Shown here piece after piece: positions 4,273 to 16,441 of a stretch of 64,000 bases of DNA. Position 1 is the first letter of the stretch; the number at the start of each line of letters is the position of its first letter. Origin of the DNA: Halorussus pelagicus (GTDB lineage: Archaea > Halobacteriota > Halobacteria > Halobacteriales > Haladaptataceae); contig NZ_CP035119.1 of assembly GCF_004087835.1 (NCBI RefSeq), positions 1,550,001 through 1,614,000 of the forward strand, read 5' to 3'. The notes beneath the pieces are model-generated. The model did no database searches, was not told where the DNA came from, and saw only the letters and a program-made list of their open reading frames with translations. Both the position numbers and the translations under genes were made by a program.

Positions 4273-4432
4273 GCGCGGTCGGCGACGCGCGCGCGAGTGA
4301 CGAACTCGGGCAGGAAGACACCGCAAATCGCGCCAATTGGCGAAAACGACGCCGCGAACTGCCAGATAAACGCGATTGAACGCCCCGAAAGTTCGGGAGT
4401 ACCTTAATGTCACGGGGTTCTGATTGAATGGT

Positions 4433-6397
4433 ATGGAGTGGCGTGACGCCGAACGGGACTACGACGACGAAGTGGTCGGCCGATCGACAATACCGCGGTT
4501 GTTCGAGGAGAGCGCCGCCCGGCACGAGAACCGTCCGGCACAGCAGTACAAGGGCGGAGTGTACGACCGGTCGCTCGTCGGGTCGGCGGTCACCGCGGCC
4601 GCCGTCGGTGAGTTTCGGTCGCTCTCGTACGCCGAGATGCGCGACATCGTCCGGTCGCTCGCGGCCGGATTCCGCGACTTGGGCGTTGAGGCCGACGACC
4701 GCGTGGGCATCTTCGCCGACACCCGGATGGAGTGGGCACAGACCGACTTCGGCCTGCTCGCCGCTGGCGCGGTCGTGACCACCGTCTACCGCGGCTCCTC
4801 GCCAAGTCAGGTCGAGTACCTGCTCGGCGACCCCGACGCCGACGGCGTAGTCGTGGAGAACGCCGAACTGCTGGAGCGAGTCGTACAGGTACAGGATTCT
4901 CTCGACCTTGAGTTCGCGGTCGTGATGGACGAACTCGGCCCGGCGGGCGAGACCACTGCCGAGGACGCCGCGTTCGAGGTCCACACGCTCGGGGACCTCT
5001 ACGAGCGCGGGAGCGAGGCGTTCGACGCCGAGGAGTACGAATCGTGGGTGGACGCCCGCGACCCCGAGGACCTCGCCACGCTCATCTACACCTCCGGCAC
5101 GACCGGCAAGCCGAAGGGCGCTAAACTCAGCCACTGGAACTTCCGGTCGAACATCAATCAGTGTTACAAGCGGTTCGGCCCGCGTCCCGACAGGGAGGGC
5201 ATGCCCGCAATCGACGAGAACGCCAGCACCGTCTCGTTCCTGCCGCTGGCCCACGTTCTCGAACGACTCGCGGGCCACTTCCTGATGTTCGCCGCGGGCG
5301 CGACCGTGGCCTACGCCGAGGACCCCGAGACCCTACAGGAGGACTTCCAGTTGGTCGAACCGACCACCGGAACCAGTGTCCCGCGAGTGTACGAGCGCAT
5401 GTACGACGCCATCCGCGAGCAGGCCGAGTCCTCGCCGGTCTCCAAGCGCCTGTTCGAGTGGGCTACCGAGGTCGGCCGCGAGTTCTTCGAGACCGACGAC
5501 CCCGGACTCGCGCTCCGGGCCAAGCGCGCCGTCGCCGACAAACTCGTCTTCCGGAAGGTTCGGAACGGTCTCGGCGGCAACATCGACTTCCTCATCAGCG
5601 GGGGCGGAAGCCTCTCGCCGGACCTCTGTGCGCTCTATCACGGGATGGGCCTGCCGATTCTGGAGGGGTACGGCCTGACCGAGACCTCTCCCGTCATCGG
5701 GGTCAACCCGCCCGAAGCGCCGAAAGTCGGCACCATCGGGCCGCCCGTGGTGGACGCGGAGGTGAAGGTGGACAACTCGGTAGTCGCTGACGAGACCTTC
5801 GACGGCGAGGTCGGCGAACTCCTCGTCAAGGGACCGAACGTCACCGAGGGCTACTGGGAGATGCCCGAGGCGACCGAGCGGGCGTTCACCGAGGACGGGT
5901 GGTTCCGGACCGGCGACATCGTGGAACTCCGTGACGACGACTACATCGAGTTCCGCGAGCGCGCCAAGGAACTGCTGGTCCTCTCGACCGGGAAGAACGT
6001 CGCGCCGGGTCCCATCGAGGACGCCTTCGCGGCCAGCAACGTAGTTGAACAGGTCATCGTCGTTGGCGACGGGCACAAGTTCGTCTCGGCGCTCGTGGTC
6101 CCGAACTTCGAGGGCGTCCGAAAGCGCGCCGACAGCGAGGGTATCAACCTTCCCGACGACGACCGGGAACTCACCCGAGACGACCGCGTTCGGGAGTGGA
6201 TGGACGCGGAAGTCGAGCGCGTCAACCAGCAGTTCGAGTCCCACGAGCGAATCAAGCAGTTCCGGGTCGTCAGCGAGGAGTTCACCGAGGACAACGACCT
6301 GCTGACGCCGACGATGAAGAAGAAGCGTCGTAACATCTTGGAGCGGTTCGCCGACGAGATAGACGAAATATACGGGCGCAAGTACGGGAACGCCTGA
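4433..6397 (+). CDS. Long-chain acyl-CoA synthetase (AMP-forming)
   Basis: 654-residue ANL-superfamily enzyme that adenylates a fatty acid and transfers it to CoA. The phosphate-binding loop YTSGTTGKPKGAKLSH sits at residues 219-234, followed by SFLPLAHVLER, the adenine motif EGYGLTETSP, and FRTGDIVEL with the hinge FRERAKELLVLSTGKNVAPGPIED, all as in the FAA1/long-chain subfamily. The C-terminal lysine region (TPTMKKKRRNILERF) is present, so it looks intact. ATG 4433 is preferred over TTG 4424; a CTTAATG box lies about 27 bases upstream. It stands alone, so whether it serves fatty-acid breakdown or lipid remodelling is unclear. Confidence 0.92.
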   Translation: MEWRDAERDYDDEVVGRSTIPRLFEESAARHENRPAQQYKGGVYDRSLVGSAVTAAAVGEFRSLSYAEMRDIVRSLAAGFRDLGVEADDRVGIFADTRMEWAQTDFGLLAAGAVVTTVYRGSSPSQVEYLLGDPDADGVVVENAELLERVVQVQDSLDLEFAVVMDELGPAGETTAEDAAFEVHTLGDLYERGSEAFDAEEYESWVDARDPEDLATLIYTSGTTGKPKGAKLSHWNFRSNINQCYKRFGPRPDREGMPAIDENASTVSFLPLAHVLERLAGHFLMFAAGATVAYAEDPETLQEDFQLVEPTTGTSVPRVYERMYDAIREQAESSPVSKRLFEWATEVGREFFETDDPGLALRAKRAVADKLVFRKVRNGLGGNIDFLISGGGSLSPDLCALYHGMGLPILEGYGLTETSPVIGVNPPEAPKVGTIGPPVVDAEVKVDNSVVADETFDGEVGELLVKGPNVTEGYWEMPEATERAFTEDGWFRTGDIVELRDDDYIEFRERAKELLVLSTGKNVAPGPIEDAFAASNVVEQVIVVGDGHKFVSALVVPNFEGVRKRADSEGINLPDDDRELTRDDRVREWMDAEVERVNQQFESHERIKQFRVVSEEFTEDNDLLTPTMKKKRRNILERFADEIDEIYGRKYGNA

Positions 6398-6527
6398 GCG
6401 TCCGCTCGCATCGAATCGTTTTCGCCGCTGCCTCCGCGTTGCTCACGACCAGACTGTTTCTCCGCGTGGATAGCGTCGAGTGCGCCAAATCTCTCCACGG
6501 ATAGATGTAGAGATTATTTCAACAAAT

Positions 6528-6577
6528 ATATAAAAAAATATCATATAAAAATAAGGTGTAAAGTTTTATTTCTACAC
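6528..6577 (+). promoter_or_regulatory. AT-rich promoter and small palindrome before the halocin-like gene
   Basis: A very AT-rich block (TATATAAAAAAATA from about 6528; TTTTATTT at 6564-6571, about 27 bases before ATG 6595) in otherwise GC-rich DNA. The second box fits a leaderless start. It is embedded in an inverted repeat, GTGTA (6556-6560) and TACAC (6573-6577), with a 12-base spacer, a plausible operator covering the TATA box. Confidence 0.55.
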
Positions 6578-6594
6578 TTTCTACTAAAAATTGC

Positions 6595-7461
6595 ATGTCC
6601 GATAATGGGCCAAGTAGACGAAGCGTACTGAAAGGTATGGGCAGTGCTGGCGTCGCTGGCGTCGCGGGGACGTTCTCGGCTTCCATCGCCGCGGCCGAGG
6701 GTCCCGAGCAGGACCCGATTACGATGCTGGAGAAGGGCCGCAAGATGGCCCTCGCCCGCAAACTCTCCCGCACCCAGCAGTTCGACGACCTGATAGAGGT
6801 CGCCAACGAGAAGGGCTACGGGTTCTCGTGGGACCTCGACAACCTCGACGCCGCGCGGGTCGAAGCCGGTGACTTCCGGCGCGAACTCGTCGCGTACAAC
6901 TTCGAGACCGAAGGCGACCACCGCGCGGCCGTCGTCGTTGGCAGGGACCTCGATACCGAGGCCGTCGAACTGGCCCAACTCGACTTCGAGTATTACCGAG
7001 AGGACGGCGTCCTCGACCGAACCGAACGCTACGAGGCGGCGACGCAGGTCGAGGCGACCCAACTCGGCAAGGAGACGACCGACAGCGGCGTCACCCACCG
7101 GACCATCCGGCCCGACCCCGACGCCATCAAGTCGTTCATCAACGAGGATGTCAACGCCACCGACTGGAACGACTTCCCGGACTATCTGAACATCAGCTAC
7201 TGTAGCGGCTGTTACTGGGCGGCCAACAAGACCTGCCGACTGCTCTGTAGCACGGTCGGGGCGTTCGCTTGCGGCGCGCTCGGCGTCACCGTCGTCGGTG
7301 CCGTCTCCTGCGTCACCTTCGTCAAGGGCGTCTGCTACGTCGTCAACTACGTCAGCGGCTGTGGCGACGACCTCGGAGCGACCATCTGTAAGGGCGGCCT
7401 GAACGTCTGCGACGACGACGCGTCCGGCGACATCGTCAACGTGGATATCCCGTACTTCTGA
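6595..7461 (+). CDS. Halocin C8-like precursor (immunity/leader part plus C-terminal microhalocin)
   Basis: 288 residues. A Tat leader (RRSVLKG, residues 8-14, hydrophobic to about 33) is followed by an acidic domain to about 197, then a hydrophobic ten-cysteine module (Cys 203, 206, 214, 218, 226, 239, 247, 256, 265, 272). From memory, halocin C8 has the same arrangement: CSxC, AA-xxx-C, xxxCS, G-x-F-x-CG-x-LG, SC, FV-xx-VC, SGCGD, then a final Cys. All intervals match except two that differ by one residue. In the C8 precursor the N-terminal part is the immunity protein HalI and the C-terminal 76 residues are the secreted antimicrobial; total lengths are close (283 and 288). Here an extra tail of about 16 residues follows the last Cys. 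Cleavage would be near residue 196. Confidence 0.88.
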   Translation: MSDNGPSRRSVLKGMGSAGVAGVAGTFSASIAAAEGPEQDPITMLEKGRKMALARKLSRTQQFDDLIEVANEKGYGFSWDLDNLDAARVEAGDFRRELVAYNFETEGDHRAAVVVGRDLDTEAVELAQLDFEYYREDGVLDRTERYEAATQVEATQLGKETTDSGVTHRTIRPDPDAIKSFINEDVNATDWNDFPDYLNISYCSGCYWAANKTCRLLCSTVGAFACGALGVTVVGAVSCVTFVKGVCYVVNYVSGCGDDLGATICKGGLNVCDDDASGDIVNVDIPYF

Positions 7462-7481
7462 GCGACGGACAGTCGCTTTTT
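7461..7481 (+). terminator. Intrinsic-type terminator of the halocin-like gene
   Basis: AGCGAC, a five-base loop GGACA, then GTCGCT and a run of five T. The stem begins on the last base of the TGA stop codon, so transcription probably ends immediately after the gene and before the convergent membrane-protein gene. Confidence 0.6.
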
Positions 7482-7551
7482 CGTTCGTCCGACTCTCGCG
7501 GGCCGCTGGTCGTCGCGCGCGACTACGCGAGCGCCGGGCGAACTGTGCCGA

Positions 7552-8271
7552 CTACGCGAGCGCGAACAGTCCCGCACCGACGACCAAGAACGTGAGCGCC
7601 GCGACGAGCGGAAACGCCGCCGCTCGCAGGCGACCGAGCGCGACCGCTCCCGGCGATCCGTCGGCTATCACGGACGGATTCGTGAGGACGACGCGGCCGT
7701 CTCGGTACTCGGGGCGGCCCGCGACGACGTGGGACTTCTCCGGGTCGATTCGGCGCTCGGTGTACCGCCGCGCTCCGATACCGAGCGACGCGAGGGGACC
7801 GCCCGCGGTGGGCGAGAGTTCGCCGCGCGCTTCCACGAACGCCCGGATTCGCTCGGGCGGTTCCTCGCCCGCCGAGACGCTGATGGTCTCGCTCTCGGTG
7901 TCGAGTCGGAAGCGTCTTGATTCGGGGGCAACTCGGACGCGGCCGCCGTCGTCGCGCAACTCGAAGGGGACCGTCGCCACGCCGTCGTCGCGGTGACCCC
8001 ACGTAAACGGAATTTCGGTCGCCGTGAGTTCGCGCTCGCTGATTTCGTATTCGAGACCGAGACAGTTCTTTCCGGTGAACGGCCCACTCAGCGTCTCGCC
8101 GACCGATTGGGTCCGGCCGCGACAGACGACGAACTCGTCGTCGGAACTCACGGACGCCGGGCCGACGACCTCCGTCCGCACGAGTCGCGGAACGACCGCG
8201 AGCGGTCGGAGACCGTACCACCCGAACGCGACGCCCCCGAGCAGGAAGACGACCCCGAGTACGGTAAGCAT
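7552..8271 (-). CDS. GIDE-domain membrane protein
   Basis: 239 residues with an N-terminal membrane helix (MLTVLGVVFLLGGVAFGWYG) and a second at the C-terminus (AFPLVAALTFLVVGAGLFAL). Between them is a GIDE-like module: GPFTGKNCLGLEYEISERE, then a TW segment, then VPFELRDDGGRVRVAPE. This matches the GIDE domain of mitochondrial MULAN-type ligases and their prokaryotic relatives, without any RING finger. It lies 27 bases after the methylase stop on the same strand, so it is probably the last gene of the restriction-modification operon. Function in archaea is unknown. Confidence 0.72.
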   Translation of the reverse strand: MLTVLGVVFLLGGVAFGWYGLRPLAVVPRLVRTEVVGPASVSSDDEFVVCRGRTQSVGETLSGPFTGKNCLGLEYEISERELTATEIPFTWGHRDDGVATVPFELRDDGGRVRVAPESRRFRLDTESETISVSAGEEPPERIRAFVEARGELSPTAGGPLASLGIGARRYTERRIDPEKSHVVAGRPEYRDGRVVLTNPSVIADGSPGAVALGRLRAAAFPLVAALTFLVVGAGLFALA

Positions 8272-8298
8272 CTCGTGTGCGGGATTCGCCCCTCTGCC

Positions 8299-10545
8299 TC
8301 AAGTATCTTCGGCTCGGAATAAACTCTCGCCGTCGTCGGCCAGCGCCTCCTCGACGAGGCGGTCGATTTCGGCTTGGACGGTCTCCAACTCGGGTATCGT
8401 CTTCCGGTTGTAGGCGCGCTTGGAGGTGTCTGTGTGTTCGGGCACGATGTCGTGGGCCTGCATCGAAAGGTCGGCGAGTCGTCGCTGTCGCTCGGTCCCC
8501 CGCCACTCGGGGAGTTGAAGATTCGAGACGACCGATTTCGAGAGGCTAGCCTTCCCCTCCGAAGCGACGTGTTTCAGCGACCGCTGGTAGGTCGCCGAGT
8601 TGAGCAGGGCACAGAGGAAGTGGGCCTCCCGCTCGCCGTCGGCCGAAATGAACATGAAGTGGTCGCCGGGCACGACCTGCTTCTGGCCCAAATCTGCGTC
8701 CTCGACGGTCGAGACGACCGCGAAATGGGGCTTGAACCCGAGGCGACACCACGCGACCTTGTACTCGCTCCACGTATACTCGCCCAGTCCGAAGACGTTG
8801 TAGAACGGTCCCTTGTCGAGCCACGACGACGACCGGGATTCGAGCGCGTCGCGGTGCGTTTCGAGGTAGTCGTAGGTCTTCGGATACCGCTCACGCAGTT
8901 CCTTTTCGTTGTCCTCGTTGGCCTTCCGGAGCGGAACCAGTCGCAGTTCGTGGCCGAACAGGCCGTACTTGACGACGTGGCGCGACTTGACGTAGGGGTA
9001 GACGAACTCGTCTTCGAGGTCGGCCAGTTCCTCGCGCTCGACGGAGAAGACGGCTTGGGCGTCGTCCTTGACGCCGTGGCGAATCTCGTGGGCGCACTCG
9101 CCGAGCGCCGCGTGCTCGGCGTCCGCGCGGACCCACGCCGACGCCTCCTCGTCGGCGTCCACCGGGACGAGCGCGGTCTCTTCGCGGTCGAGCGTCCGGC
9201 GCATTGACGCTCGCGTGGCGAAGTCGGCGGGGTCGTCGCGCTCGCTGGCGGTCCACGAAACCGTCTCGACGGGGAACTCGTGGTCGGCGTCGGCCCGGAG
9301 CGCGTAGACGGCGGCGTTCGCGCCGACCTGCTCGCCGAAGGGTCGGAGTCGGTTGAAGTCGTGGACCGCTTCGAGCGCGAGCGGTCGTTCGTCCACACTC
9401 AGCGTTCGGAGAAGTTTGCCCGCAGGTCCCTTCGAGACGGCGCGCTTCAGGACGAAACTCGCCCCGCCGCCCGCGTCCAGATAGCGGTCGATACAGACCC
9501 AGACGAACGGCAGGGAGATGTCGTCGTTGGCGTGGCCCAACCGCGAGGCGGTCCCGTCGTGGGGGAGTAGATCGAGTTCGTCGCCGCGCTCGCGCCAGCC
9601 AGCTTTCACGGTCTCCGAGAGGCGACTCCACGGAATCCACGGCGGGTTCCCGACGAGGTAGTCGGCGGCGGGGTCGAACTCCTCGCCCCGGAACGAAATC
9701 CGGTCGTCGCGGGTCAGACCGACAGCGTCGGTCAGAAAGACCGGGAGTTCGACGCGCTCGGTCTCGGCCGCGTCGAGGACGGGCAACAGCGAGAGCAGGT
9801 AGTTCAGTTTCGTACTCGTGACCGCGACCGGATTCAGGTCGATGCCGAAGACGCTCGACGTGACGTTGGCCACGATTTCGTCGGGGGAGTGGGTGTCCTC
9901 CAGCGCCGCAATCTTGCGCTCGATGCAGACCGACGGAAACACGCCCGACCCGCATCCGGGGTCGAGAAACGTCGCGTCCGCGAACTCCTCGACGCCGAGT
10001 GCGTCCACCGCGAGTTCGGCGACGCCTCGCGGGGTGTGGTACTCCCCGAGCGCGAGGCGGAGGTCCCGAGAGACGACGCCCTCGTAGAGTCGCCGGAGAA
10101 AGCCGGTGTCGGCCGCCCGGAGGTCGGCCCTCGTGAGCGCGTCCTCGATTGGGTCGGGGACGCGCCCGTCGAGGTCGGCGAGTTCGCTCACGACGCGGTC
10201 GTGCAACGCCCGGAAGCGAACCGACAGCGCGCCGGTGTTCGCCCGCGGTTCCCGATTGGCCAGCGCGAACCCGAACTCGCGCTCGGCGAGCGCGACGATG
10301 CGGTCCACCACGAAGTCGTAGTACAGCGAGTCCACGAACAGTTCGTCGGTCGGTCGCTCGCCCGCGGCGCTCGGGCGCTCTACGTCCGCGAGGGCGTCGC
10401 CGTGGCTGGTCTCGAAGAACGTCTCCCACTCCGAGCGGGCGGTCCGAAACCGCTCGTCGCTCGCCAGCAGGTCGCGCGCGACGTCGCGGTAGGCCTCGTA
10501 CAGCGCGCTCTCGCGGCCCCACCGCTCGGCGATGTCGGCCGTCAT
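8299..10545 (-). CDS. N6-adenine DNA methylase (Eco57I-like family)
   Basis: 748 residues. The SAM-binding motif I is FLDPGCGSGVF (about 193-203), followed by GIDLNPVAVTSTKLNYLL (motif II/III region) and the catalytic motif IV NPPW (about 300-303), the signature of gamma-type adenine methylases. Later segments (DHFMFISADGEREAHFLCALLNS, SLSKSVVSNLQLPEW) resemble target-recognition regions of type I/IIG proteins. I see no nuclease motif at its N-terminus. It begins two bases after the stop of the large RM protein, so the two are translated from one message. It may methylate the second strand, broaden specificity, or be a separate enzyme. Confidence 0.86.
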   Translation of the reverse strand: MTADIAERWGRESALYEAYRDVARDLLASDERFRTARSEWETFFETSHGDALADVERPSAAGERPTDELFVDSLYYDFVVDRIVALAEREFGFALANREPRANTGALSVRFRALHDRVVSELADLDGRVPDPIEDALTRADLRAADTGFLRRLYEGVVSRDLRLALGEYHTPRGVAELAVDALGVEEFADATFLDPGCGSGVFPSVCIERKIAALEDTHSPDEIVANVTSSVFGIDLNPVAVTSTKLNYLLSLLPVLDAAETERVELPVFLTDAVGLTRDDRISFRGEEFDPAADYLVGNPPWIPWSRLSETVKAGWRERGDELDLLPHDGTASRLGHANDDISLPFVWVCIDRYLDAGGGASFVLKRAVSKGPAGKLLRTLSVDERPLALEAVHDFNRLRPFGEQVGANAAVYALRADADHEFPVETVSWTASERDDPADFATRASMRRTLDREETALVPVDADEEASAWVRADAEHAALGECAHEIRHGVKDDAQAVFSVEREELADLEDEFVYPYVKSRHVVKYGLFGHELRLVPLRKANEDNEKELRERYPKTYDYLETHRDALESRSSSWLDKGPFYNVFGLGEYTWSEYKVAWCRLGFKPHFAVVSTVEDADLGQKQVVPGDHFMFISADGEREAHFLCALLNSATYQRSLKHVASEGKASLSKSVVSNLQLPEWRGTERQRRLADLSMQAHDIVPEHTDTSKRAYNRKTIPELETVQAEIDRLVEEALADDGESLFRAEDT

Positions 10546-10547
10546 GG

Positions 10548-13500
10548 TCAGTCCATCGGCCCGCGCTCGGCCAGTTCGTCGTAGGTCTCAGCCACGAGGT
10601 CGAAATACTCCTCGGTCATCATCCGCGGGTCGCGCACCCGGTGGAAGTCGTCCAGCACGAACCGGGTCTCCTCGCGGTCGAGTCCGTAGGCGTGGAACGC
10701 CGCGGCGTCGATTTCGGCTTGGAGACGCTGGCGCTCGTCGGGGTCGGTCGCGGCGTCGATGCCGCCCAACCGCTCGCGCATCTCCGCGAACTGCTCGCCG
10801 TAGCAGTTGAGGCGCGCCGCGCGATGGGAGATGTATTCGAACCAGTCGTCGCCCGAGGTGAGGCGGGGGACTTGAGATTCTTTGAATTTATACTGGACAA
10901 TACTTGAGTCGATTTTTGTCCTCATTAGGAAGTCAAACGGAATGCTATTGAGTAGTCCCAACGCTACGAATAGTTCTTTATCGGTGAATATTCGGTTGTA
11001 AGCGCCGTGAAGACGCTTCTTCTGGAGATGTTTTTCTTCCGGTTGAATTGAGTACGGCCGAAGAGTAGGTAATTTGTGGTAGCTTATTACTCCCTTCGGG
11101 ATTATTGCGGCAATCATCGTCCGCTCGTCAGTTGAACGAGCGATTTCTCGGTAAGCAAGCCGGTACTCTGTGCAGTCAAGAAGAACGTCTTCTTCGGTTA
11201 ATGGTTCTCCTCGCTCGTCTTCTAATAGGTCGTTTACAAACTGCTTCTGGGACTTGCTGGTCTTTTCTCCACCGAACTCGTCGTAAACCGACCGCTTCAA
11301 ATCTGGAAGGTTCTTTTCTCGAATTCGCTGTTTTCCACTCTTTTCAGGGTCCGTTTCCTCACTAACACTCCAGAAGTTAGGAGATTCTAAATCGTCTACG
11401 AAATCCGGAGAATAAGAGTACTGATAGACATTCCTACCGCCAAGAACAGGGTAGTCTCCGTTATATTTCTCTTCGACAAGCCGATCAGAATCTTGGGATA
11501 AGTGTAGTTCGGTATAGGGGTCAGCGTACCATTTTTCTCCGCTTTGTTCACCTATAGCCGGGTTCTTGAGTACTTTTTCTAGAACGTCAGTTTCTTTTCC
11601 GGAGTTAACGCTGGGGAATATACTCGCTTCTGGTGAGAAGTTTCCAAGAACTGTTTTGCTGATGCTGATTGCTTCTTCGTCCAGATTTTTGAGTATTCGA
11701 AGATCCTTTTGCACGAACTTCCCCTTGAGAACGTCTGTCTCTCCGGAGTTCTTCAGAACGAGAGTGCCGAAATTGTACCTGTTATCAATATCGTCAAATA
11801 TCCCGTGGTTTTCAAAAGTCACGAGAGAATTCACTCTTGTTTGGTTCAGTAAGTGTTTGCGTAGGTCTTTACAGGAAGCGCCAGTAAATACGACGCCCGG
11901 CAGAACTTGTGAAACGTAACCATCATTGTCAGCCAATTTAAGAACACGTTCTAAAAATAGGGCCGACAAGTCGTTTTCATTGGCGACTGTCCGCCCGGCT
12001 ACTTTCGGAGTTTGCAACTCGTAACTCCCACTCTTTTTAAAGTAGGTAGACCGGATTTTCATCCGCCGCTGATAGTCCTGCCATTTCGGTTGAATTTCTC
12101 TCTCGTCTCTCTCCAAGAGTTCTTTCTGTTTCTGGTCTTTCTCCGAGGGTGTTCGTGTTCGAAAACGACTGTCAAACTGCGAGAAAAAGTCGTCTCGATT
12201 TACTGTCAAAACTTCCCACGGCGGATTCCCCACAATCACGTCGAACCCACCATCACCATACACCTGCGCGAACTCCAAGACCCAGTGGAACGGTTCGTAC
12301 TCCCGGACCTGCTCGACGCCGATGTCCTCGATTCCGGCCTCTTTGAACTCCAACAGCACCTTCTCGTCCAAGTCGTCGCGGTACTGGTCCAGCAGTTCCT
12401 CGGCGTCTTCCAGATACGCCTTGGCCTCCTCGGTGTCGCTGGTTGCCTTGTGCTTCTCGACCAGTTCGATGATGTCGCCGTACTTCTCGCGCACCGTGTC
12501 GGCACCCCACGCGTCGAGGCGCGACTGGTCGCTGTCGGAACTCGTCTCCATCAGGTCGGTGTAGCCGATGAGGCTGTTGCCCTGCCGGACGTTGAACACC
12601 ACGTTCGGGAGCGCCAGTTCCTCGTCGTCGTAGGTGGCCACCTCGTCGGGGTCCACCTCGGTGATGATGGAGAGCCAGAGTCGGAGTTTGGCGATTTCGA
12701 CCGCCGGGTTCACGATGTCCACGCCGTAGACGTTCTGGACGACCGTCTGCTTGTGGAGTTTCCACGTCGGCGGAGTCTCGTCGTGTTTCTCGTAGAGGGC
12801 CTTCCGGATACCGACGAGTTCGCTCTGGACCGAGGTGAGGAAGTGGCCCGACCCACAGGCAGGGTCGAGCGCGCGGAACTCGTCTACCACCGCGAGCAGG
12901 TCCTCGATGAGGTCGGTGTTCGTCTCGGGGAGCGCGTCCACGAGTTCGTACACGTCGTCGTAGTCGGCCATCTCGTCGGTCCAGCCCCATTCGGCGACCA
13001 TTCGGTCGGCGAACCGCTCCAAAAGCGCGGGTTGGACCGTCTCCTCCGCGCAAAAGCGCGTGATTTCGTCGGGCGTGTAGTAGGCTCCCAGTTCCTTCTT
13101 CTGGTCGCCCGCGTCGCCCGTGATGTGGTTGATAGTCTTCTCGAAGACGTTGCCCAGCACGCTCGGGTCGAGGTCGGTCGGCCCGCCGTCCGCCGAGAAG
13201 TCGTGGCGCTCCAGCAGGTCCACGATGGAGAGCAACACCGTGTCGCGCACGTCGAACTCGCGCTCGTTCACGTCGCCGTCCCACTCGCTGGTCGGCCGGA
13301 ATAGGCCACCGTTGAGATACGGCACCTCGCTGTACACGTCGATGTCCCGAATCCGGCCCGTCCGGTCGTCGGGTTTCTCGTCCAAGATGCCGAAAAACAG
13401 CGGTTCGAGATAGGTCTTGTAAAACGTCTCGGGGTTCAGACCGTCGTCGTGGTCCGCCACCAGTTTCCGGAGGAGGTCGGCGTCCACCAGTCGCTTGTCT

Positions 13501-14435
13501 TCGAGGAACTTCAGGAAGACGAGGCGGTTCATCAACCCGACCGCGAACAGTCGCACGTCGTCGCCGGTCGCCGCTTCCGGCGCGATTACGCCGTCGCCGA
13601 CGAGGCTTCGGGTCGTCCGCTCCTCGCCGTCGGGTCGGATGCCGAAGACGTACTGGACGTACTCGTCGTAGAACTCGTCGGTGATTTCGGCTTTCGTCTC
13701 CTTGATGACCGCCCGCGCCTCGCTGGCGATTGAGACGAAGTTCTCGTAGCCGAACGACCGGACGAACGTCTCTACCAGCTCCCGGTCGTCGCCTTCGACC
13801 CACTCGTCCAGTCCGACGTTGCGCCCCGTCTGGTTCTCGAACGCTTTGACGAAGGTCCGCTGGAGGTTCACCTCGGCCAAGGTGTCGTAGCTGTAGGTGT
13901 CGCGGTCGTACTTGACCAGCACCCACCGTAGCCCGTCGGTTGCCAACCCGAAGTTGGCGTCGAACTTCTTGCGGTCGAGCCAGTCTTTGACTTGCCCGAG
14001 TCCGTGGCTCTCTTGGTCGAGTCGCTTGTTCATCGGTTCGGCCTCGACCAGCAGTCGCCCCGAGTCCACGTCGTCGTACTCGGCGAGCGAGAAGGAGTAG
14101 TCCGCCTGCTTGCCTCGTTCGTCCGAGCGGTCGCCCGCCTCGACGGCGGGGTCGGGATAGCCGAGCGCCGCGAACAGCGGTTCGATGACGGTTCGCTTGG
14201 TGATGGGTTCGGGGTCCTCGTTCTCCGCGCTGTCGCGCGCCATCAGCGTCGTGGCTTCGCCGTCTCGGAGCAGTTCTTCGAGTCGGTCGTCACCGACGCT
14301 CTCTCGCAGGTCAGCGACGGCGTCCGAGACCGCGGTTGCGACGCTCTCGATTTGGGACTCCGATACCTCGGTGTCGAACGCTTCGGTGACGAACTCGGTG
14401 GGGACCGAGCGTAAGGGGTTCTCTCGCTCGTTCAT
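10548..14435 (-). CDS. Type IIG-like restriction-modification protein (Eco57I family)
   Basis: 1295 residues, start MNERENPLRSVPTEFV (the open frame extends to 14501 but the extra residues look non-coding). N-terminal part: a PD-(D/E)XK-like nuclease region with Asp112 and VEAEP at 130-134; the usual 'ExK' reads E131-A-E133, so nuclease competence is uncertain. Then a helical linker, the methylase core with motif I LDPACGSGHF (about 522-531), GVDIVNPAVEIAKLRLWL and motif IV NPPW (737-740). Residues about 741-1189 are the presumed target-recognition domain and are encoded by markedly AT-rich DNA. The last 100 residues return to host-like composition. First gene of a three-gene operon. No BREX or DISARM partners are nearby. 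Confidence 0.88.
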   Translation of the reverse strand: MNERENPLRSVPTEFVTEAFDTEVSESQIESVATAVSDAVADLRESVGDDRLEELLRDGEATTLMARDSAENEDPEPITKRTVIEPLFAALGYPDPAVEAGDRSDERGKQADYSFSLAEYDDVDSGRLLVEAEPMNKRLDQESHGLGQVKDWLDRKKFDANFGLATDGLRWVLVKYDRDTYSYDTLAEVNLQRTFVKAFENQTGRNVGLDEWVEGDDRELVETFVRSFGYENFVSIASEARAVIKETKAEITDEFYDEYVQYVFGIRPDGEERTTRSLVGDGVIAPEAATGDDVRLFAVGLMNRLVFLKFLEDKRLVDADLLRKLVADHDDGLNPETFYKTYLEPLFFGILDEKPDDRTGRIRDIDVYSEVPYLNGGLFRPTSEWDGDVNEREFDVRDTVLLSIVDLLERHDFSADGGPTDLDPSVLGNVFEKTINHITGDAGDQKKELGAYYTPDEITRFCAEETVQPALLERFADRMVAEWGWTDEMADYDDVYELVDALPETNTDLIEDLLAVVDEFRALDPACGSGHFLTSVQSELVGIRKALYEKHDETPPTWKLHKQTVVQNVYGVDIVNPAVEIAKLRLWLSIITEVDPDEVATYDDEELALPNVVFNVRQGNSLIGYTDLMETSSDSDQSRLDAWGADTVREKYGDIIELVEKHKATSDTEEAKAYLEDAEELLDQYRDDLDEKVLLEFKEAGIEDIGVEQVREYEPFHWVLEFAQVYGDGGFDVIVGNPPWEVLTVNRDDFFSQFDSRFRTRTPSEKDQKQKELLERDEREIQPKWQDYQRRMKIRSTYFKKSGSYELQTPKVAGRTVANENDLSALFLERVLKLADNDGYVSQVLPGVVFTGASCKDLRKHLLNQTRVNSLVTFENHGIFDDIDNRYNFGTLVLKNSGETDVLKGKFVQKDLRILKNLDEEAISISKTVLGNFSPEASIFPSVNSGKETDVLEKVLKNPAIGEQSGEKWYADPYTELHLSQDSDRLVEEKYNGDYPVLGGRNVYQYSYSPDFVDDLESPNFWSVSEETDPEKSGKQRIREKNLPDLKRSVYDEFGGEKTSKSQKQFVNDLLEDERGEPLTEEDVLLDCTEYRLAYREIARSTDERTMIAAIIPKGVISYHKLPTLRPYSIQPEEKHLQKKRLHGAYNRIFTDKELFVALGLLNSIPFDFLMRTKIDSSIVQYKFKESQVPRLTSGDDWFEYISHRAARLNCYGEQFAEMRERLGGIDAATDPDERQRLQAEIDAAAFHAYGLDREETRFVLDDFHRVRDPRMMTEEYFDLVAETYDELAERGPMD
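10870..12215 (-). other. AT-rich target-recognition segment inside the type IIG gene
   Basis: Base composition shifts sharply to AT-rich just after the codons of the catalytic NPPW motif (12216-12227) and returns to GC-rich near 10870, still within the same open frame. The encoded stretch is rich in Lys, Asn, Ile, Phe and Ser, unlike the acidic host proteins. The placement matches the specificity domain of type IIG enzymes, suggesting replacement by recombination from a lower-GC donor. Confidence 0.7.
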
Positions 14436-14560
14436 GGTGAACCTCGAAGACCGCAGGGTACTGGTGATACTGGTTCGGCCCTCCCACATAAATTCACGCA
14501 ACTAACTTCGCTGGCCGCTACCGACTGTTTTAAACCACTCACCCCACTTTACCCTCAATA

Positions 14561-14565
14561 GGAGG
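14561..14565 (+). promoter_or_regulatory. Strong Shine-Dalgarno site deciding a GTG start
   Basis: GGAGG ten bases before the GTG at 14576. In a window dominated by leaderless starts this clear ribosome-binding site fixes the antiporter start and implies a leadered transcript. Confidence 0.65.
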
Positions 14566-14575
14566 ATTACATAGA

Positions 14576-16441
14576 GTGGCAGCAGAAGGTGGCGCGCTTG
14601 TACCCATCGTCGCCGCGATTATCGGTCTCGGTGTCGGAGCGCAGGTCCTAGCCGACCGTTTTCAAGTGCCCAGCGTGCTGTTTCTCATCCTCGCTGGAAT
14701 TATTATCGGTCCCGAGGGGTTACAGATAATCACGCCCGAGGCGTTCGGCGGCGCGCTGTCGGCCATCGTCGGGCTTTCGGTCGCCATCATCGTCTTCGAA
14801 GGGGCGTTCCACCTCACGACCGAGAAGCTTCGTGAAGCGCCCTCGGCGACGCTCAGACTCGTGACCATCGGTGCCATCGTCGCGTTAGTCGGCACCGCGG
14901 TCGTGGTCCGGTTCGCGCTCGGCGTCCCATGGGACGTGGCGATGCTCGTCGGGTCGCTGCTGGTCGCCACCGGTCCGACGGTCATCACGCCCATTCTCGA
15001 AGTGGTGCCCGCCCGCGACCGCGTCGAAATCGCGCTCGAAACCGAGGGCGTGGTCAACGACGTGACCGCCGCGATTCTGGCTGTCGTCACCTTCGAGTTG
15101 GTGCTTCTGGAAAGTCCGACCGTCAACGAGGTCGTCGCCGACTTCGCGCGCCGACTCGGTATCGGCATCCTCGCCGGGCTGGTCGTCGCCGGAGTCGTCT
15201 GGTACCTCTTGCAGTACGTCGATCTCTCGCCGGACAACGCTCCGCAGAACGCCCGACTCATCACCCTTGCGGGCGCGTTGGTCGCTTTCGGGAGCGCCAA
15301 CACCCTCGCAACCGAGGCGGGAATCGCGGCGGTGGCGACCGCGGGCGTCGTCCTCGGGAATCTCGACATCCCGTACAAGGAAGACATCGAGGCGTTCAAG
15401 GGCGACATCACGTTGCTCGTCCTCTCGTTCGTCTTCATCGCGCTGGCGGCCCTGCTTGAGTTCGATACGTTGCTGGGTCTCGGCGGCGAGGGTATCGTGG
15501 TCGTCGTGGCCGTCGCGCTCGTCGTTCGTCCGCTCGGCGTCATGCTCTCGACGACGGGCGACCGATACACCCTCAACGAGCGCGTCTTCATGAGCGTCGT
15601 CGGGCCGCGAGGCATCATCCCGGCGTCGGTCGCCACGCTATTCGCGGTCCAACTCCAGAACCAAGGACTGGGTGAGACCGCGGACATCCTCGTCGGGACT
15701 GTCTTCCTCGTCATCCTGACGACGGTCGTTTTCGAGGGCGGATTCGCTCGACACATCGCGGAATACTTGGACGTGATACCTATGCGTGTAATCATCGTTG
15801 GAGGCGGGAAGGTGGGCCGCTCGCTCGCCGAACGCCTCGAAGACCGTGGCGAAAACGTGGTCCTCATCGAGAGAGATCAGGAAATGGTAGAGCTAGCCCG
15901 CGGCGAGGACTTCACGGTCCATCAAGGAGACGGGACCGACACCGAAGTCCTCCAGAATGCGGGCGCAGAGAACGCGAAAATAATCGTGGCCGCGACCGGC
16001 GACGACGACGCGAACCTGCTGGTCGCGCAACTCTCGAAGTCGAAGTTCGACGCCGAAACCGTCATCGCGCGGGCCAACAACCCCGACAACGTCGATGCCT
16101 TCGAGGACCTCGGTGTCCAGACCATCGACGCCTCGTCGGCGACGGCGTGGGCCATCGACAACGCCATCGAGCGCCCGGCGCTGTCGGACTGGATGACCGA
16201 ACTCGGCCGGTCGGGCGACGTGCAGGAAATCGAGGTCACCGCGGACGACCTCGTGGGCAAGACCATCTCGGAACTCGACGACGAACTCCCGAACGGCGTC
16301 CTTATCGCGCTGGTCGGCCGAGACGGCGACAGCGAGGTTCCGAGCGAGGACTTCACGCTTCAGCGCGGCGACCACATCACCTTGCTCGGTCGGACGGAGT
16401 CGGTCCATCAAGCCATCAATCGCTGTCACCCGCGGACCTGA
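14576..16441 (+). CDS. Cation/proton antiporter with C-terminal RCK (TrkA) domain
   Basis: 621 residues. Residues 1-400 form about 12 membrane helices of the CPA/NhaP superfamily; ATGPTVITPI and TEGVVNDVTAAILAV carry the polar ion-binding motifs. Residue 403 begins MRVIIVGGGKVGRSLAERL, the Rossmann NAD-binding motif of a TrkA-N/RCK domain, with the acidic end of beta-2 in VVLIERDQEMV; a TrkA-C lobe (about 540-621) follows. The RCK domain probably gates Na+ or K+ export in response to nucleotide or cation, which suits a salt-in organism. The GTG start is supported by a Shine-Dalgarno site at 14561. Divergent from the RM operon. Confidence 0.9.
   Translation: MAAEGGALVPIVAAIIGLGVGAQVLADRFQVPSVLFLILAGIIIGPEGLQIITPEAFGGALSAIVGLSVAIIVFEGAFHLTTEKLREAPSATLRLVTIGAIVALVGTAVVVRFALGVPWDVAMLVGSLLVATGPTVITPILEVVPARDRVEIALETEGVVNDVTAAILAVVTFELVLLESPTVNEVVADFARRLGIGILAGLVVAGVVWYLLQYVDLSPDNAPQNARLITLAGALVAFGSANTLATEAGIAAVATAGVVLGNLDIPYKEDIEAFKGDITLLVLSFVFIALAALLEFDTLLGLGGEGIVVVVAVALVVRPLGVMLSTTGDRYTLNERVFMSVVGPRGIIPASVATLFAVQLQNQGLGETADILVGTVFLVILTTVVFEGGFARHIAEYLDVIPMRVIIVGGGKVGRSLAERLEDRGENVVLIERDQEMVELARGEDFTVHQGDGTDTEVLQNAGAENAKIIVAATGDDDANLLVAQLSKSKFDAETVIARANNPDNVDAFEDLGVQTIDASSATAWAIDNAIERPALSDWMTELGRSGDVQEIEVTADDLVGKTISELDDELPNGVLIALVGRDGDSEVPSEDFTLQRGDHITLLGRTESVHQAINRCHPRT

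Follow-up and report, generated by a model that had tools for sequence, protein, structure and literature searches.

In the restriction enzymes MmeI (type IIL), BpuSI and DrdV (both type IIG) the domains follow one order, with a nuclease, a helical spacer, a gamma-class N6-adenine methyltransferase, a recognition domain and a C-terminal helical bundle, and enzymes of types IIG and IIL use one recognition domain for both cutting and methylation (matched passages of PMC4833311). The exchange of recognition domains is a principle already known from bacteria (types I and III): in type I, type III and S-subunit type IIG systems of Helicobacter pylori, sequences of recognition domains are transferred by recombination at conserved flanks, both from allele to allele and between genes that are not orthologous (matched passages of PMC3077401 and PMC3983042).

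The gene described here shares the domain order of MmeI, BpuSI and DrdV. It lies in a stretch of 64,000 nucleotides (the window), which corresponds to positions 1550001–1614000 of a contig in the 3.49 Mb genome of Halorussus pelagicus; the named relatives are haloarchaea. We consider it probable that residues 741–1188 of the encoded protein are a portable specificity module and that the one now present stems from a more AT-rich relative, having displaced its predecessor most likely through homologous recombination. Three observations carry this reading, namely the compositional mosaic with its borders, the exchange at those borders in relatives, and the conflict between phylogenetic trees.

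Architecture and composition of the IIG gene

The gene (the query) is intact. A single open reading frame on the minus strand (10548–14501), with a likely ATG start codon at 14435, encodes 1,295 amino acids. Residues 741–1188 are referred to as the middle or module and residues 1–740 as the N part; in the trees and in all N-part figures the flank is residues 1–740 only, and values for the C end are given separately. The following features were assigned:

10548..14435, minus strand: type IIG/IIL-like restriction-methyltransferase gene, 1,295 amino acids (open reading frame; Eco57I methylase PF07669, 91.7 bits; MmeI_Mtase, 35.9 bits; best PADLOC REase_MTase_IIG match, 125.3 bits)
13716..14360, minus strand: N-terminal PD-(D/E)XK-type nuclease domain, approximately residues 26–240, with invariant D112, E131-A-E133 and Q148 (predicted fold and alignment columns)
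12936..13685, minus strand: helical spacer, approximately residues 251–500 (Z 11.0, rmsd 2.6, 133 residues aligned to MmeI; MmeI_hel PF20465, 21.6 bits, under the cut-off of 27)
12216..12854, minus strand: first half of the methyltransferase fold, approximately residues 528–740, from just past DPACGSG up to NPPW, of host-like composition (matches to type I M-subunit structures)
12216..12227, minus strand: left junction, the catalytic NPPW codons, residues 737–740 (maximum-likelihood border; identity breaks in homologue pairs)
10872..12215, minus strand: AT-rich exchanged module, residues 741–1188, with the second half of the methyltransferase (about 741–944) and the target-recognition domain (about 945–1188) (maximum-likelihood borders, codon preference, fold mapping)
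10551..10871, minus strand: C-terminal helical bundle, residues 1189–1295, of host-like composition, whose start is the right junction (maximum-likelihood border; breaks in homologue pairs; helices in the model)

Structure models were calculated for residues 1–500, with 37 sequences (mean pLDDT 78.3), and for residues 470–1295 (mean pLDDT 75.3). When compared with known folds (VIA-align), the N-terminal model matched DrdV (Z 10.1), an HsdR fragment (9.6) and BpuSI (9.1), and the second model matched M.BseCI (Z 15.1, rmsd 5.0, 356 aligned residues), CamA (13.7), BrxX/PglX (12.0 and 11.9) and MmeI (10.3). A nuclease with a DrdV/BpuSI-like N-terminal fold and a methyltransferase with an Eco57I methylase domain are thus found on one polypeptide, in which the gamma-class N6-adenine methyltransferase motifs DPACGSGHF and NPPW are followed by the recognition domain and the helical bundle. 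The assignment to type IIG in the earlier note is corroborated by these two folds and by the Eco57I methylase and PADLOC IIG matches, and the protein, of type IIG/IIL architecture, is predicted from its sequence and models to cut and to methylate DNA via a single shared recognition domain. Type I M-subunit structures aligned to residues 58/59 to 475–477 of the second model, i.e., to about residues 528 to 944–946 of the protein (9 of 11 rows). Since these matches stop at about residue 944–946, the module would comprise some 200 residues of post-NPPW methyltransferase fold and a recognition domain of some 240 residues. The earlier note had equated the segment with the specificity domain; this domain is indeed included, but about half of the segment is methyltransferase fold.

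The nuclease motif is located at window positions 14004–14105 (residues 111–144), where E131-A-E133 is accompanied by a nearly invariant K137 in the set of 37 proteins. D112, E131 and E133 are invariant across the 37 aligned proteins, with Glu at the position where Lys is usual; the query thus has E-x-E where MmeI, BpuSI and DrdV have E-x-K. A similar E-x-E motif is known from BamHI.

The composition of the gene changes abruptly at two positions. An unconstrained three-segment maximum-likelihood analysis of all codon bases placed the borders at 12215 and 10872, and the analysis of third positions only placed them at 12260 and 10872 (likelihood ratio 263 for GC3). With NPPW at residues 737–740 and the left border at 12215, the change begins at the very next codon. 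An abrupt change after NPPW and a return near 10870 within one intact frame had been noticed beforehand, and the calculated borders differ from these positions by at most two bases. The G + C content is 63–64% for residues 1–740, 44–47% for residues 741–1188 and 69% for residues 1189–1295, and the respective GC3 values are 86–88, 44–51, and 92% (0.88, 0.47, and 0.92 in the maximum-likelihood segments). When 44 gene-like open reading frames of the window were scanned more coarsely, the query reached a likelihood ratio of 255, and the next-highest value was 66. The synonymous codon score, calculated with a table built from 10 window genes, was +0.385 for the N part, −0.400 for the middle and +0.457 for the C end, and in 100-codon windows the scores of N part and middle did not overlap. 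The GC and codon analyses that had been proposed as a check therefore bear out the break, as the host codon preference changes sign inside the segment. As to the suggested richness in Lys, Asn and Ile, the middle contains more Lys (8.5% vs. 3.4% in the flanks) and Asn (4.7% vs. 2.7%), but Ile is only slightly elevated (4.5% vs. 3.5%).

Homologues and exchange of the module

Relatives of the query were found at E ≤ 1e-20 in 145 of 392 genomes of the order. The homologue set, drawn from among the matches listed from these genomes, consisted of 30 loci, 40 fetched regions, and the loci L033 and L035. A scan of genome contigs returned six loci, among them L033 and L035; L031, L032 and L034 were dropped as being identical with L004, L022 and L006, respectively, and the fragment L036 was not used. 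Trees, GC regression and break-point count were calculated without the near-duplicates L014, L017, L043 and L046, which the pairwise table retains; L047, L048 and L050, which are incomplete and lack some regions, do not enter the regression, and the 71-row tree does not contain L073. Homologues aligned over residues 1–1290 were assigned to class A and those sharing mainly residues from about 562 onward to class B. The identity of class B to the query is 11–20% for residues 1–280, 30–35% for 281–500, 39–49% for 501–740, mostly 40–60% over the module and mostly 63–78% at the C end. Contrary to the expectation that the segment would be unalignable, the module can be aligned in both classes and in every full-length homologue, and that of the query is 47–60% identical to class A.

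With residues 501–740 and 1189–1295 taken as flanks, 35 of 36 class A homologues have a middle of lower G + C content (median difference 6.2 points); for both classes together the figures are 70 of 72 and 4.1 points. The same holds for GC3 in 30/36 and 57/72, respectively. The low G + C content of the middle is thus partly a family trait, which weakens its reading as a recent import. According to the earlier note, homologues in related species carrying the segment at a divergence and composition like those of the flanks would speak against an exchange; the segment is of lower G + C content family-wide, yet the query is the most extreme case in comparison with class A. Its gap of 19.9 points exceeds those of all 36 class A homologues (next 15.3; the class B locus L062 reaches 22.6), and it falls below the regression line by z = −2.8 for GC and −2.2 for GC3 (in residual standard deviations). 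The family-wide dip would fit an explanation without any swap in the query, in which an amino-acid or codon constraint builds low G + C content into the segment. We regard this as unlikely, because the dip of the query is strong at third positions, the query deviates from the regression, and the trees conflict (see below). Moreover, homologues in GC-rich settings have middles of 58–65% G + C (L033 and L035), so that low G + C content is not demanded by the fold, and for the family as a whole this explanation is refuted by discordant pairs of homologues.

In such pairs conserved flanks enclose a divergent recognition part, a pattern seen directly in relatives and indicated for the query by trees and composition. 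Identities of N part, middle and C end were 95/50/84% for L038/L039, 93/55/85% for L007/L023, 97/65/94% for L009/L027 and 92/54/63% for L011/L037. The reverse pattern, with the middle above the N part, occurred in L033/L041 (46/66/66%). In L023/L039, too, the middles (87%) are more alike than the N parts (78%). As a control, the other four pairs with N parts of more than 96% identity (L011/L014, L044/L046, L016/L017, and L023/L043) retain the middle at 93–100%, and hence the middle is not merely fast-evolving. Recognition domains are expected to diverge under diversifying selection on specificity, and entropy is high at residues 901–980 and 1121–1140. That the middle is simply the fastest-evolving part of the protein, without recombination, is nevertheless very improbable, since N part and middle are about equally conserved in unswapped near-identical pairs, pairs with a better conserved middle exist, and L009/L027 stands beside L023/L043 (97/100/100%). 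The accumulation of breaks at NPPW and at the C-terminal bundle and the approximately unbiased (AU) tests described below also contradict it. Pairwise identities of the first 500 residues correlated strongly with those of residues 501–740 (0.94), compared with 0.38 for residues 961–1188 and 0.75 for the C end.

The 36 homologues form 630 pairs, 139 of which had N parts at least 72% identical; 58 of these had a middle lower by 15 points or more than either side, and 81 did not. Among the 58 discordant pairs, which share sequences and do not represent independent events, the left break fell at residues 735–760 in 30 and at 860–908 in 19, and the right break at 1180–1205 in 30. The breaks at 735–760 and 1180–1205 coincide with the composition borders of the query. 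Movement of the recognition domain only was considered as well; for the query the borders and the fold mapping argue against it, but the 19 pairs with left breaks at 860–908 are broken nearer to the border between methyltransferase and recognition domain.

In the tree of residues 1–740 the query groups with L002–L006 and L033 (support 96/93). This clade was rejected in the middle when all seven rows were included (AU p = 6e-56), without L033 (p = 0.029), and without L033 and L005 (p = 0.014). The grouping of the query with L002 was also rejected in the middle (p = 1.5e-6), and so was the six-row clade in the 71-row middle set containing classes A and B (p = 1.8e-33). Conversely, the middle pairings query/L018, L033/L041, and L023/L039 were rejected over residues 1–740 (p ≤ 4.5e-7). 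The pairing of the query with L005 was rejected in neither part (p = 0.083 and 0.44), and thus the moved middles may be those of L002–L004 and L006. The position of the query in the middle trees lacked starred support, and a maximum-likelihood break-point scan of the query against L002, a pair that is uninformative at such distance, chose residues 413 and 631 instead of the module borders. Exchange within the N-part clade of the query is clearly indicated by these sequence comparisons; it is less certain which members' middles moved, and the mismatch of the query itself is indicated by composition. Among the sequences searched, no relative has flanks near-identical to those of the query (the closest N part, that of L002, is 69% identical), so that composition and trees, and not a before/after pair, argue for the swap in the query.

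Locus, donor and second backbone

The surroundings of the IIG gene were compared with those in congeners:

10546..14500, no strand assigned: approximate inserted DNA relative to congeners, between the 748-amino-acid gene and the antiporter gene; ends approximate, not base-exact (9 of 9 congener loci empty)
8299..10545, minus strand: 748-amino-acid NPPW methyltransferase, resident gene of high G + C content throughout, whose start codon (10545) directly follows the end of the IIG gene

At all nine congener loci that have both neighbors, the gene of the 748-amino-acid methyltransferase and the antiporter gene adjoin without an IIG gene in between. Either the IIG gene arrived or it was lost repeatedly; arrival is simpler, and the whole gene would accordingly be a newcomer at this locus. 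The swap thus need not have occurred in the H. pelagicus genome. There is slightly less than an even chance that the chimera was formed elsewhere and that the whole gene came in this state from a high-GC haloarchaeon or a mobile element, with no swap in this lineage; this would affect the timing only and not the exchange as such. The empty congener loci and the occurrence of module relatives on haloarchaeal plasmids are consistent with such an arrival, whereas the fully host-like codon use of the flanks fits a long residence with a later swap as well as it fits a high-GC donor.

The DNA upstream of the IIG gene still resembles the intergenic region of congeners. The 748-amino-acid methyltransferase has relatives in 40 of 392 genomes of the order, including 12 of the genus (that of the window counted). 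Near the defence genes, positions 6595–7461 of the window encode a protein that combines a halocin-8-like domain at its N-terminus (PF22862, 83.4 bits) with a Cys-rich C-terminal part.

In our preferred reading, a double crossover in the conserved coding stretches on either side would have replaced the module as a unit that begins just behind NPPW, contains the later half of the methyltransferase fold and the target-recognition domain, and reaches up to the C-terminal bundle. The donor would be a more AT-rich relative from the same enzyme pool, and a single exchange would alter cutting and methylation specificity together, resulting in a changed target motif. Since one recognition domain serves both activities (matched passages of PMC4833311), such a swap would change both at once and be safe for the host. 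A search for a closer donor of the module found none: the best full match was 60% identical among 391 genomes of the class and 58.7% among 83 plasmid records, viral contigs gave four pattern matches but zero relatives, and phage records gave no match. The earlier note's proposal of modular exchange from a lower-GC donor thus stands as far as the mosaic, the exchange in relatives and the conflicting trees are concerned, but its donor is deduced from composition, the nearest sequence found being about 60% identical over the whole segment.

Class B represents a second backbone for the module, one that has a different N-terminus. A quickly built tree of the module only, in which some branches are long, mixes classes A and B, with 12 label changes, at least eight of which are forced by starred branches; the query and L002–L006 all fall within the class-B-rich part. 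At one class B locus, on the Halobaculum plasmid NZ_CP090373.1 (L120:8747–19411), the methyltransferase gene is accompanied by an inverted partial (silent) copy, a PLD-SNF2 helicase gene and a phage-integrase-family gene. A comparison of L071 or L073 with L074 shows that expressed and silent halves have changed places, with 98–100% nucleotide identity in nearly all windows and a switch near residue 550. Both orientations occur in different genomes, so this sister backbone undergoes inversion, which would act as a switch of specificity. Two class B module copy sets were also found about 121 kb apart on one contig (G097:C4:18469–23943 and 139753–145227); they have identical scores and possibly reflect a recent duplication.

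The sister backbone, with its phage-integrase-family gene beside the L120 copies, could suggest that the segment of the query is likewise an expressed cassette copy subject to inversion or gene conversion within its own genome. This kind of phase variation is, however, scarcely credible for the query, whose own genome contains a single match to the module (E up to 10) and a single match to the whole protein, so that inversion is not its mechanism at present; the exchange point of the sister system, near residue 550 and not 741, differs as well. Returning to exchange between genomes, we give an even chance to the broader view of a pool of AT-rich half-enzyme specificity modules that is common to haloarchaea across the order, each module consisting of the post-NPPW half of the methyltransferase and a recognition domain. 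These modules would move between the nuclease-fused IIG enzyme and the methyltransferase (beside a PLD-SNF2 helicase at one locus), and a specificity proven in one could be lent to the other.

Comparison with known systems

The C-terminal two thirds of the query resemble BREX PglX/BrxX in fold (8q56_A, Z 11.9, rmsd 3.9, 361 aligned residues). Unlike PglX, the query has its own nuclease domain, and its PglX scores are below the cut-offs. An identity as BREX PglX was rejected on the basis of the NCBIfam model BREX_1_MTaseX (68.4 bits vs. a cut-off of 500) and the BREX-2 (45.5 vs. 400) and BREX-6 (43.2 vs. 900) models. No BREX partner genes were found among the neighbors scanned at 4424–16441, which encode a methyltransferase and GIDE-like, halocin-like, AMP-binding and antiporter proteins. 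HVO_A0006 and HVO_A0237 of Haloferax volcanii, likened to the query by their description, are haloarchaeal IIG relatives that fragment and move (matched passages of PMC4389544 and PMC5867850); they are described with the nuclease motif PD-x14-EAK and a split gene, whereas the query has E-x-E and is intact.

A description of such exchange in haloarchaea was not found in the literature searched, which comprised listings, beginnings of abstracts and matched passages and is no proof of absence. Within this literature the wide occurrence in haloarchaea, a junction located at the catalytic motif, and the use of one module by two backbones are apparently new. The fused cutter-methylase appears to recombine right at its catalytic motif and to carry a portion of the catalytic domain along with the recognition domain, whereby one exchange could be enough to give the gene a new DNA target. 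If this is true, target motifs might be predicted from the module type across haloarchaea, for which L009/L027 and L038/L039 offer ready-made tests, and the natural junctions would be pre-tested sites for engineering enzymes of new specificity.

According to the matched passages of PMC4833311, the MmeI family diversifies via residues of the recognition domain, whereas the family of the query exchanges a block of about 448 residues that starts inside the catalytic domain. The domain movement in H. pylori, as far as described in the passages cited above, mostly concerns S or Mod genes and takes place within a bacterial species. In the query family it affects a fused cutter-methylase, extends over an order, and moves half of the methyltransferase fold as part of the unit.
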